DNA of 14,793 nucleotides from an uncultured Verrucomicrobiales bacterium (GTDB lineage: Bacteria; Verrucomicrobiota; Verrucomicrobiae; Limisphaerales; CANJSG01). Positions within the stretch are counted from its first letter, which is position 1; each line of letters starts with the position of its first letter. Both the position numbers and the translations under genes were made by a program. The stretch covers positions 1 through 14,793 of the forward strand of contig CAMLMI010000085.1 of assembly GCA_946480965.1 (NCBI GenBank), in the 5' to 3' direction. A model generated the notes under the pieces. The model did not search any database. It was not told the origin of the DNA and saw only the letters and a program-made list of their open reading frames with translations. Shown piece by piece: positions 5,021 to 9,072 of the stretch.

Positions 5021-5935
5021 TCACCGCTTCCCCTGTCCGGCCAGGAGCAGCGCGCCGGTTGGCACGGAGTCTTCCTTCAAGGTGGCGAGGACCAGCGCCG
5101 GGCCTTCGCCGAACACCTCCATGATGTAGCGACGCAGCGCGGTGGCCACGGCGGCGCGGAGCGGTTCTCCCACCAACGACAAGCCGCCGCCGAGGATGAT
5201 CCGCTCCGGGTGCAGCAGTTGGACGACGTGGGACAGGCCGAAGGCCAGATTGTCGGCAAATTCGCTGAGAATGGCGTGGGCCAGCGGATCGTGCTGGGCC
5301 AGGGCTCCGGCCAAAAACCGAGCTTCGCCTTCGGTCGCGCCGTCGGCCAAGGCGGCCAAAGGTCCGCCGGGATGCAGCGCCACGGCTTCGCGGATGCGCC
5401 GGTCCACCGCCCAGCCGGAGCAGCGCTCTTCGACGAGCGTGCCGGACTTGTCCAAACGCACGTGGCCGATCTCCGCTTCGCCCGGCGCGCGTCCGTGGTA
5501 GATGCGGCCTCCGACGATCAATCCACCACCGACCCCGCTGCCAAGAGTGGTGTAGAAGACGGGATCAGCTCCACGGCCCGCACCCAGCAAGGCTTCTCCG
5601 AGCGCGGCGACGTTGGCGTCGTTGTCCACGAAGACGGGGCATTCGACCTGGCCCCTCATCCAGCCGGCGAGGTCGAAGTCCGACCAGCCTTCGATCTGGT
5701 GCGAGCGGGCGATGCGGCCGGTGGCGTGGTTCACCGGCCCGCCGAAACCGACGCCCACGGCGTCGATAGATTCCGTGGAACGGATGGAGGCGACGGTTTC
5801 CGCGATCTTGCGGCGAATGCCCTCGGCGGCGGCTTCGCGGGCCACCTTGAACCGGAAGCGTTGGCGGATCGTGCCGTCGGCGTCGCCAAGAACGAGCTGG
5901 AGCTTGGTGCCGCCGATTTCGATGCCGAGGATCAT
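5021..5935 (-). CDS. ROK-family sugar kinase (glucokinase-like)
   Basis: This cytoplasmic protein of 304 residues is predicted to phosphorylate a hexose or amino sugar with ATP. The phosphate-loop motif is IEIGGTKLQLVLGD (5-18). The catalytic base lies in VDNDANVAALGE (103-114, Asp106), and the second phosphate motif is TTLGSGVGGGLIVGG (129-143). The sugar-binding E-x-G-H motif is EIGH (155-158), and an adenosine-binding IILGGGLS lies near the C-terminus. There is no N-terminal DNA-binding helix-turn-helix, so it is a kinase rather than a ROK repressor. After EIGH the usual zinc-binding cysteine cluster is missing: only one cysteine (C172) occurs in LVEERCSGWAVD. The substrate therefore cannot be named from sequence. 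The gene lies downstream of htpX but beyond a strong terminator. Confidence 0.87.
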   Translation of the reverse strand: MILGIEIGGTKLQLVLGDADGTIRQRFRFKVAREAAAEGIRRKIAETVASIRSTESIDAVGVGFGGPVNHATGRIARSHQIEGWSDFDLAGWMRGQVECPVFVDNDANVAALGEALLGAGRGADPVFYTTLGSGVGGGLIVGGRIYHGRAPGEAEIGHVRLDKSGTLVEERCSGWAVDRRIREAVALHPGGPLAALADGATEGEARFLAGALAQHDPLAHAILSEFADNLAFGLSHVVQLLHPERIILGGGLSLVGEPLRAAVATALRRYIMEVFGEGPALVLATLKEDSVPTGALLLAGQGKR

Positions 5936-7103: not shown

Positions 7104-8189
7104 GTGATCCGGAACATCATCTTCGACTGGTCGGGCACCCTGGTGGACGACCTCCCGGCCGTGTGGCGGGCGTCGAACCACGTCTTCTCCCAGGCGGGCG
7201 TGGAGGAACTGTCGCTGGACCAGTTCCGCGCGGAGTTCCAGTTGCCCTTCGAAGGTTTCTACCGCCGCTACACGCCGGACGTTCCGATGGAGCGGCTGGA
7301 GGAATGGTTCCACGGCCGGTTCCGCGAAGTGCAGGACAGCGTCGTCGGCCTGCCGCACGCGCGGGCGTTCCTCGAACTTTGCCGCCGCCACGGCATCCGC
7401 ACCTTTCTCCTCAGCGCGGTGCATCCCGACCATTACGCGGTGCAGGCCGAGACGACGGGTCTGGGCGGATTCATCGACCATCCCTACATCGGCGTCTGGG
7501 ACAAGCGCCGGCGCATCCACGACATCCTCGCCGAACACGCGCTCGATCCTGCGCAGACGCTCTTCATCGGCGACATGCAGCACGACATCGAGACTGCGAA
7601 GCACGGCGGGCTGCATTCCGTGGCCGTGTTGACCGGCTACAACGGCCTCGGACAACTGCGCGCCAGCCAGCCGGACCTCATCGTCGAACACCTCGGCGAA
7701 CTGCGGGAACTCTTCGAACGCGACGCCTTCCATTTGCCGCACCAGCAGGTCCCCACGACCGCAGCGCCGAAGCCCATGCCGATCGCCACCGTCGGCGCGG
7801 CCATCTTCAACGATGCGGGCGAAGTCCTGATGATCCGCACGCAGAAGTGGTCCGGTCTCTGGGGCATTCCCGGCGGCAAGATCCACTGGGGCGAAGCCAG
7901 CGAAGACGCGCTCCGGCGCGAAGTGCTGGAAGAGACGGCGCTGCGCGTGACGGACGTGGAATTCGTCCTCGTCCAGGACTGCATCCACTCGAAGGAGTTC
8001 TACCGCGACGCTCATTTCCTGCTGCTGAACTACGCCTGCCGCGCGCCCGGAGAACAATCCGTGACGTTGAACGAAGAGGCGCAGGATTTCCGTTGGGTGT
8101 CGCTGGACGACGCCTACGCCCTGCCGCTAAACACGCCCACCCGCATCCTGCTCGACGCGTTGGTCGCCCGGCGTGGCGCTCTCGTCTGA
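7104..8189 (+). CDS. HAD-superfamily / NUDIX hydrolase fusion
   Basis: This cytoplasmic protein of 361 residues joins two hydrolase domains. Residues 1-205 are a HAD domain with motif I FDWSGTLVDD (nucleophile Asp8), a helical cap, motif II Ser104 in TFLLSAV, a motif III lysine near 134, and motif IV FIGDMQHDIETAKHGG (154-169). Residues about 226-355 are a NUDIX domain with LWGIPGGKIHWGE and a full NUDIX box, Gly258 to Leu280, including REVLEET; Ala replaces the usual Gly near its end. NUDIX enzymes split nucleoside diphosphate-X compounds; HAD enzymes commonly remove phosphate. In motif I, Ser10 replaces the second Asp used as acid-base by most HAD phosphatases. folB starts 9 bases downstream, which suggests a role in pterin metabolism. 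The GTG at 7104 is chosen because the HAD fold begins there; the frame stays open far upstream only because it runs antisense to htpX. A nucleotide-sugar or ADP-ribose role is an alternative. Confidence 0.9.
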   Translation: MIRNIIFDWSGTLVDDLPAVWRASNHVFSQAGVEELSLDQFRAEFQLPFEGFYRRYTPDVPMERLEEWFHGRFREVQDSVVGLPHARAFLELCRRHGIRTFLLSAVHPDHYAVQAETTGLGGFIDHPYIGVWDKRRRIHDILAEHALDPAQTLFIGDMQHDIETAKHGGLHSVAVLTGYNGLGQLRASQPDLIVEHLGELRELFERDAFHLPHQQVPTTAAPKPMPIATVGAAIFNDAGEVLMIRTQKWSGLWGIPGGKIHWGEASEDALRREVLEETALRVTDVEFVLVQDCIHSKEFYRDAHFLLLNYACRAPGEQSVTLNEEAQDFRWVSLDDAYALPLNTPTRILLDALVARRGALV

Positions 8190-8198
8190 TTCTCCGTC

Positions 8199-8558
8199 AT
8201 GGACACGATCATCATCCGCGATCTGGAGGTCTCCTATCACGTGGGCGTGCCCGACGAGGAGCGCGCCCATCCCCAACGCCTGCTGCTGACGGTGGAGATG
8301 GAGCGCGACATTCGCCGCGCCGCCGCCATGGACGACCTGATCCACACGATCAACTACTACGCCGTGAGCCAGCGCCTGCTGAAGCTGGGCGAGGGGCGGA
8401 GCTGGAAACTGATCGAAACGCTGGCCGAGGAGATCGCCGGAATCGTGCTCAAGGAGTTCGGCGCCGCCGCCGTCACGGTCGAGGTGCAGAAGTTCATCAT
8501 CCCCGAGGCGCGGCATGTGGCGGTGAAGGTTCTCCGCTCGGTCCAAGTGCCCTACTGA
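8199..8558 (+). CDS. folB: Dihydroneopterin aldolase
   Basis: FolB cleaves 7,8-dihydroneopterin to 6-hydroxymethyl-7,8-dihydropterin and glycolaldehyde in folate synthesis, in the cytoplasm, usually as an octamer. The 119-residue length is standard. The N-terminus IIRDLEVSYHVGVPDEERAHPQ (4-25, abbreviated here by its DLEV and GVPDEER cores) carries the pterin-binding glutamate (Glu21). TINYYAV (50-56) carries the conserved tyrosine, Glu73 lies in LIETLAEEI, and VEVQKF (94-99) supplies the catalytic lysine Lys98. The segment after the lysine reads IIPEARHVAV. FolX epimerases are related, but the sequence looks like FolB. The gene begins 9 bases after the HAD-NUDIX gene with no ribosome binding site, so translation is probably coupled. 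No other folate gene is in the window. Confidence 0.92.
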   Translation: MDTIIIRDLEVSYHVGVPDEERAHPQRLLLTVEMERDIRRAAAMDDLIHTINYYAVSQRLLKLGEGRSWKLIETLAEEIAGIVLKEFGAAAVTVEVQKFIIPEARHVAVKVLRSVQVPY

Positions 8559-8565
8559 ATTTCCC

Positions 8566-9072
8566 GTGTCCGACTCCCTCGCCGGAACCTTCCTCCAGTT
8601 GATCGTCGTGCCGTTCCAGCACGCGTCGATGGTCTGGGGCATCGTGCCGCTCTACTTCGGTTGGATCGTGAACGAGATCACGTCGTCCAAACCGTCCTTC
8701 AACACCGCGTTCCAGACCGGCTTCGCCCTGCTGTGGTCCGGCGCGAACTGGACGTGGCAATACTTCCAGGACCATCCGGACCAGGACCAGGCGTTGCAGG
8801 CCCGCAGCCTGATGGCGGTGAGTTCGGCGGTGACGCTGCTGGTGTTGGCGCTGGGCGCGGTGGCGTTCTGGGCCGGCATCCGGAGGAAGTATCCGAAAGG
8901 AATGCGGTTCCTGGGCCACACGCGGTTCAGCGCCTATTTCATGATCGCAATCTTCCCGATCCAGAGCGGCTTTCTGGCATGGACCTGGGAACGCGTCGCT
9001 GCGATTGCGGTCTTCGCCGTGCCGGTCTGGCTGGCATCGCACTTCCTGCTGATGCCGCTGCGGAAGCGTTGA
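8566..9072 (+). CDS. Polytopic membrane protein of unknown function
   Basis: The protein of 168 residues is mostly hydrophobic. Likely membrane helices lie at about 8-37 (LQLIVVPFQHASMVWGIVP, possibly a re-entrant pair), 83-104, 121-139 and 143-163. A weaker, tryptophan-rich segment lies at 45-65 (FALLWSGANWTWQYF). The linkers are short: an acidic stretch DHPDQDQ at about 69-75 and a basic stretch RRKYPKG at about 106-112. No known transporter motif is recognised. The start is GTG at 8566, 7 bases after the folB stop codon, without a visible ribosome binding site. The spacing implies cotranscription with the HAD-NUDIX protein and folB. A pterin-related role is possible from context only. Confidence 0.75.
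   Translation: MSDSLAGTFLQLIVVPFQHASMVWGIVPLYFGWIVNEITSSKPSFNTAFQTGFALLWSGANWTWQYFQDHPDQDQALQARSLMAVSSAVTLLVLALGAVAFWAGIRRKYPKGMRFLGHTRFSAYFMIAIFPIQSGFLAWTWERVAAIAVFAVPVWLASHFLLMPLRKR

Follow-up and report, generated by a model that had tools for sequence, protein, structure and literature searches.

A HAD-NUDIX fusion protein encoded next to folB in Verrucomicrobiota is a strong candidate for phosphate removal from the folate precursor before FolB

Which enzymes remove the phosphates of 7,8-dihydroneopterin triphosphate (DHNTP) before dihydroneopterin aldolase (FolB) acts? In this vitamin pathway, a target of drugs, few steps are as poorly assigned as the dephosphorylations that lie between GTP cyclohydrolase and FolB. 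The described pyrophosphatases of DHNTP, NudB of Escherichia coli and FolQ of Lactococcus, are single-domain enzymes. In its account of these steps, a 2007 comparative study noted that the gene for DHNTP pyrophosphatase was still missing in most genomes, and that the last phosphate, that of dihydroneopterin monophosphate (DHNMP), was believed to be removed by a non-specific phosphatase (PMC1971073). The two known DHNTP enzymes are placed apart in a published Nudix tree (PMC5389931), and gene clustering has been described as helpful in predicting Nudix substrates (PMC5041015).

Here, we describe a locus in which both chemistries may reside on one polypeptide. The window, that is, the whole stretch of 14,793 nucleotides that was analysed, encodes a single protein of 361 residues with a HAD and a NUDIX domain, followed after 9 bases by folB; the open reading frames and the Pfam search confirm this layout, on which the original prediction was built. 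The features are as follows.

7104..8189, + strand: HAD-NUDIX fusion gene, 361 aa, GTG start (ORF list, Pfam, 81-row alignment and AlphaFold model)
7104..7739, + strand: HAD domain with C1 cap and phosphoglycolate-phosphatase-like fold (HAD_2, PF13419, 57.1 bits at residues 5-175 of the fusion protein)
7125..7139, + strand: HAD motif I, D8-W9-S10-G11-T12, in 81/81 rows; the nucleophile Asp is retained, and the Asp two residues on (D+2) is replaced by Ser
7413..7415, + strand: HAD motif II, Ser104, in 77/81 rows
7503..7505, + strand: HAD motif III, Lys134, in 81/81 rows
7569..7586, + strand: HAD motif IV, G156-D157-M158-Q159-H160-D161, with G156, D157, M158, H160 and D161 in 81/81 rows
7776..8180, + strand: NUDIX domain with NudI/MutT-like fold (PF00293, 86.8 bits at residues 227-344; PDB matches to NudI 6dt3)
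7875..7943, + strand: Nudix box, residues 258-280, with G258, E264, R272, E273, E276 and E277 in 81/81 rows
8199..8558, + strand: folB, dihydroneopterin aldolase, 119 aa, ATG start at 8199 (PF02152, 93 bits)

Upstream of the GTG at 7104 the same open frame continues, to a TTG at 5613, and the GTG was chosen as the start because the N-terminus is conserved (I2 in 79/81 rows and N4 in 81/81). The AlphaFold model of the fusion protein (mean pLDDT 92.2, pTM 0.75) consists of two folded domains joined by a loose linker around residues 215-218, which fold comparison identifies as a phosphoglycolate phosphatase-like HAD and a NudI-like NUDIX domain. Nearly all rows of the structure comparison cover residues 1-214 only, and consequently the fold assignment of the NUDIX half rests on Foldseek and sequence. 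Beginning 7 bases past folB there is also an ORF of 168 aa (8566-9072, + strand), hydrophobic by eye, which has no Pfam match and is absent from the 80 related loci described below.

Compared with the non-specific phosphatase believed to act on DHNMP (PMC1971073), the proposed reaction is the same, and the fusion protein would be a dedicated, FolB-coupled candidate for it. No description of a HAD-NUDIX fusion was found in the open-licence literature, which does not prove that none exists; the same literature was also queried for DHNMP phosphatase, for HAD-FolB and NUDIX-FolB fusions and for the folate genes of Verrucomicrobia, Akkermansia and Chlamydia, and the fusion was not described there.

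A protein search with the fusion returned 5636 matches, and among the 120 matches listed all carry HAD plus NUDIX. In genome contigs, 244 stretches encoding relatives were found, of which the best 80 were analysed for neighbours. They come mostly from Verrucomicrobia-level taxa, and the three with proteobacterial names (L009, L024 and L030) were read as misnamed bins. FolB lies downstream on the same strand in 73 of these best 80 loci, at an estimated median gap of 11 nt; the gap is no more than 100 nt in 67 of the 73, small overlaps included, and 149-409 nt in the other six. Nine other genes of the window were searched for at E 1e-4, and the 80 loci contain none of them. The linkage between the fusion and FolB is thus not accidental. 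It should be noted that clustering of the neighbours in 39 loci was noisy, since out-of-frame and antisense ORFs also form clusters; judged by their offsets, the clusters of 15-39 loci represent frames that fall on HAD-NUDIX or FolB; after these, cluster size does not exceed 12 of the 39.

Seven of the 80 loci (L020, L029, L042, L053, L057, L067 and L068) show no clear FolB within the stretch, although that of L053 stops 791 bases past the fusion gene and L067 has a faint match (E 0.0041). Each of the seven unlinked genomes carries one FolB at a separate place, and in three of them (L084, L086 and L088) no HAD relative was seen in the FolB surroundings of about 1.5 kb. Linkage to folate genes, which had been proposed as a check, stands for folB in the 73 loci. 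It fails for folK and FolE2: of 288 genomes sampled, 11 have the HAD-NUDIX fusion, and in none of these does the contig of the fusion carry FolK or FolE2 at a distance of up to 100 kb.

These 288 genomes were drawn from the phylum of one relative (G001, itself counted), and 44 of them encode a clear relative of the HAD half with the motif DWSGT; beneath the 44, HAD identity drops from 38% (E 1.3e-43) to 30% (E 1.7e-18). Searching the sample for the HAD-NUDIX architecture, as the original prediction had suggested, gave 11 genomes, all within the 44: nine have it beside folB, and two (G277 and G204) have FolB elsewhere. The other 33 carry the HAD half without NUDIX, and here 22 HADs share a single open frame with FolB as a fusion, 5 adjoin folB and 6 have no FolB nearby. 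Altogether, the HAD is coupled to FolB by fusion or adjacency in 36 of the 44 genomes and uncoupled in 8. With a HAD-FolB fusion as the query, nearly all of the 120 matches listed carry both domains, the exceptions being P0154 and P0160, and the four organism-named matches among them are all Akkermansia sp. Since both gene order and fusion connect one HAD family with FolB, Akkermansia included, the step could be tested with one purified protein.

A tree of 58 hand-picked HAD domains, with a midpoint root and weak deep forks, scatters the HAD-NUDIX members over many branches (6 changes), while the HAD-FolB fusion takes 2 changes, the HAD beside folB 3 and the HAD alone 1. This pattern fits an old HAD-NUDIX/folB pair whose NUDIX part may have been lost several times. 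Among the six stand-alone HADs, five match or resemble proteins of Methylacidiphilum and Methylacidimicrobium. In loci of this type (L144, L145, L149, L150 and L151), a single open frame was seen to encode a SLOG domain of the cpYpsA type (PF12694) in its N-terminal half and FolB in its C-terminal half; Pfam confirms the cpYpsA-FolB fusion in L144 and L150, and the other three look alike.

What, then, could the HAD-NUDIX protein do? The gene order, the two kinds of fusion, a NUDIX-DHPS gene pair described below and the co-occurrence of FolE or FolE2 with FolK place it in folate synthesis, just before FolB. Its membership in the pathway is well supported, and the idea of the original prediction, that the fusion acts just before FolB, finds support at this level from the linkage and the HAD-FolB fusions. 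The chemistry agrees, since pyrophosphate release by a NUDIX domain and phosphomonoester hydrolysis by a HAD domain fit, in order, the steps from DHNTP to dihydroneopterin. Based on these sequence comparisons, we consider it probable, at roughly 0.7, that the protein is a bifunctional folate enzyme. That is, DHNTP, the product of FolE2 (in a few genomes, of FolE), would lose pyrophosphate at the NUDIX domain to give the monophosphate; the HAD domain would remove the last phosphate via a phospho-Asp8 intermediate; and FolB, from the next gene, would cleave the dihydroneopterin. Both substrates, the order of the steps and any hand-over between the sites are what we infer here. The residues needed are conserved, namely the Nudix box, the HAD nucleophile, the Lys and the motif IV Asp residues, and it is the HAD, not the NUDIX domain, that stays with FolB when one of them is kept, which fits a HAD step adjoining that of FolB.

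Several points speak against the bifunctional enzyme. Ser replaces the D+2 Asp in every row, and the NudB model gives a score of 33.5 against 103. The NUDIX half is absent from 33 of the 44 sampled HAD genomes, and the surroundings of folK and folE2, at 20 loci each, offered no substitute beyond a weak lead to RppH. FolB is not beside the HAD gene in 8 of the 44 genomes and in 7 of the 80 contig loci. In addition, 7 of 30 HAD-less genomes with low FolB scores have the same type of FolB, so that the HAD is not indispensable, unless the assemblies are incomplete. All the same, the HAD-NUDIX protein stands as a strong candidate for this little-understood removal of phosphate from the folate precursor before FolB.

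The FolB of the window scores 93 bits with PF02152, against a cut-off of 31.8, and narrowly misses the TIGR00525 folB equivalog (71.8 vs 72.15 bits). Four active-site residues of FolB, Glu, Tyr, Glu and Lys, are used on dihydroneopterin; the corresponding E21 and Y53 are present in 74/74 rows and E73 and K98 in 73/74, the remaining row being a gap, and the four matching residues are invariant in 28 HAD-FolB fusions. The rest of the pathway was checked in 47 HAD-carrying genomes (39 from the sample's 44, and 8 more), each with a single FolB and a single FolK; FolE is present in 3 and FolE2 in 45, and no genome lacks both. FolB occurs in 44/44 HAD genomes of the sample against 216/244 of the others, a comparison that is confounded by kinship.

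The loop after the catalytic Lys of these FolB proteins is one residue shorter and mostly reads K-F/Y/R rather than K-P. The next residue is Phe in every linked row that reaches it (73 of 74, the other being truncated at this point). Among the 28 fused rows, 26 have Phe or Tyr, one has Pro and one has Met; of 20 HAD-less genomes taken from the best-scoring FolB matches, 19 have Pro and one has Lys. As a mark of partnership with the HAD the short loop was rejected, because the K-F/Y/R form is also found in 7 out of 30 further HAD-less genomes, selected because their FolB scored low (L254, L265, L266, L268, L270, L272 and L273, two of these genomes being of about 0.9 Mb), and it is therefore a lineage trait.

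The loop also bears on the main alternative, in which the monophosphate, again a product of the NUDIX domain, is the substrate of FolB; glycolaldehyde phosphate would be released and then dephosphorylated by the HAD. A label of this kind exists, since an archaeal PTPS-family protein appears as 'Dihydroneopterin monophosphate aldolase' in one database (PMC5041015). The phosphoglycolate phosphatase-like sequence and fold of the HAD and the shortened loop would agree with such a scheme. However, the phosphoglycolate phosphatase models are far off (54.3/225 bits), the loop change recurs in the 7 HAD-less genomes, 2 of the 28 fused rows have no aromatic residue, and FolB retains all four residues that serve on dihydroneopterin. 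We regard this alternative as unlikely.

For the NUDIX half, the complete box claimed in the original prediction holds up, as its six key residues are invariant in the 81 aligned rows. The consensus of the Nudix box is GX5EX7REUXEEXGU, and the window protein has Ala in place of its usual final Gly. By PDB sequence comparison this half resembles NudI, MutT and GDP-mannose hydrolases, and Foldseek matches its fold to NudI 6dt3. With NudB and FolQ it shares the NUDIX fold and box and, under the bifunctional reading, the reaction and the place in the pathway; by both sequence and fold, however, it is closer to NudI/MutT. Orthology to NudB was rejected, the score being unsupportive (NF006961, 33.5 bits vs a cut-off of 103).

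Could the protein instead be a house-cleaning hydrolase, acting on oxidised or sugar nucleotides, ADP-ribose or phosphoglycolate and merely co-transcribed with folB? The kinship of its NUDIX domain to NudI, MutT and GDP-mannose hydrolases points that way, as do the database names 'phosphoglycolate phosphatase' and 'ADP-ribose pyrophosphatase YjhB' given to members, but the repeated coupling to FolB only, the HAD-FolB fusions and a NUDIX gene overlapping a DHPS-family gene would be left unexplained, and we find such a role quite improbable.

The overlapping gene was found with a NUDIX-domain profile, which matches 17 of the 288 genomes at E <=1e-12: the 11 fusions, G215 (E 7.6e-36) and five at 1.0e-16 to 8.4e-13. 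In G215 (L137, 3186-4399, - strand), a NUDIX gene that is not part of a fusion shares bases with the beginning of a Pterin_bind gene (DHPS-family, 84.5 bits), with a radical-SAM gene, queE-like by reading, upstream and a second NUDIX gene downstream. This overlap links the NUDIX half to folate on independent grounds, though only once.

If the bifunctional enzyme is the right reading, what replaces the NUDIX half where it is lost? The profile finds no close relative of it at E 1e-12 in the NUDIX-less HAD genomes of the 288. A separate NudB in the same genome, which would have spoken against the prediction, exceeds the NCBIfam cut-off in 0 of 37 HAD genomes, with a narrow model that only 1 of 14 controls passes; weaker NUDIX matches are present in all 37. 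The Nudix-box pattern occurs in 3 of 20 folK loci (G213, G216 and G225, one small clade) and in 0 of 20 folE2 loci, and the three folK-side proteins pass the RNA pyrophosphohydrolase cut-off (123.1-130.8 vs 116 bits), so that they provide a weak lead to a substitute. In L182 (2977-4095), the RppH-type NUDIX gene lies about 42 nt after folK, and NUDIX genes close to folK were also seen in L183 and L184; in all three of these related genomes the HAD protein has no NUDIX half.

In the HAD domain, D8, W9, S10, G11, T12, K134, D157, H160 and D161 are invariant over the 81 aligned rows. D-W-S-G-T is present in 357 of 360 protein matches, the other three not fitting the pattern at all, and His at position 160 in 359 of 360. 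The residues of HAD subfamily IA are found, namely the nucleophile D8, S104, K134 and G156/D157/D161 (GDxxxD), except for the D+2 Asp, which is Ser10 in 81/81 rows. The caution of the original prediction about this Ser was well placed and becomes stronger, the Ser being invariant across the family. In HAD phosphatases the residue two after the nucleophile is usually an Asp that works as acid/base and protonates the leaving group, and its absence raises a question on how the DWSGT HAD catalyses. In phosphoserine phosphatase, the residue just before the last motif IV Asp sits by the phosphate; His160, which holds this position, is therefore a candidate stand-in for the missing Asp.

The phosphoglycolate phosphatase-like HADs (subfamily IA, C1 cap) are similar to the fusion HAD in sequence and fold; the latter differs by the Ser in place of the D+2 Asp and by the coupling to FolB, and does not reach the phosphoglycolate phosphatase equivalog models (54.3/225 and 50.3/180 bits). 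Phosphonoacetaldehyde hydrolase (PhnX) also lacks the D+2 Asp, and carries a Schiff-base Lys in its cap, whereas the fusion HAD family keeps no invariant cap Lys. A phosphonatase reading of the DW-GT motif was rejected, as no Lys is found among the conserved columns of residues 14-100 in the alignments and TIGR01422 gives 28.8/220 bits.

That the HAD has lost phosphatase power and is a scaffold or a phosphoryl-holding regulator keeping NUDIX and FolB together would account for the Ser in every row, but this is very improbable, because a pure scaffold needs none of the nucleophile, Ser/Thr, Lys and GDxxxD that are all retained along with the invariant His160, and 6 genomes retain the HAD with neither NUDIX nor FolB next to it. 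Returning to the bifunctional reading, the DWSGT clade could be a dedicated DHNMP phosphatase of Verrucomicrobiota that works without the acid/base Asp, with His160 or Ser10 substituting, and the fusions could serve to pass labile pterins from site to site, a possibility that we hold at somewhat less than even.

As a separate observation on the HAD-FolB proteins, P0121 and P0122 are frames of 583 and 485 aa, respectively, in which an RNA methyltransferase domain (PF04452) accompanies HAD-FolB; they are either true triple fusions or overlapping gene calls.
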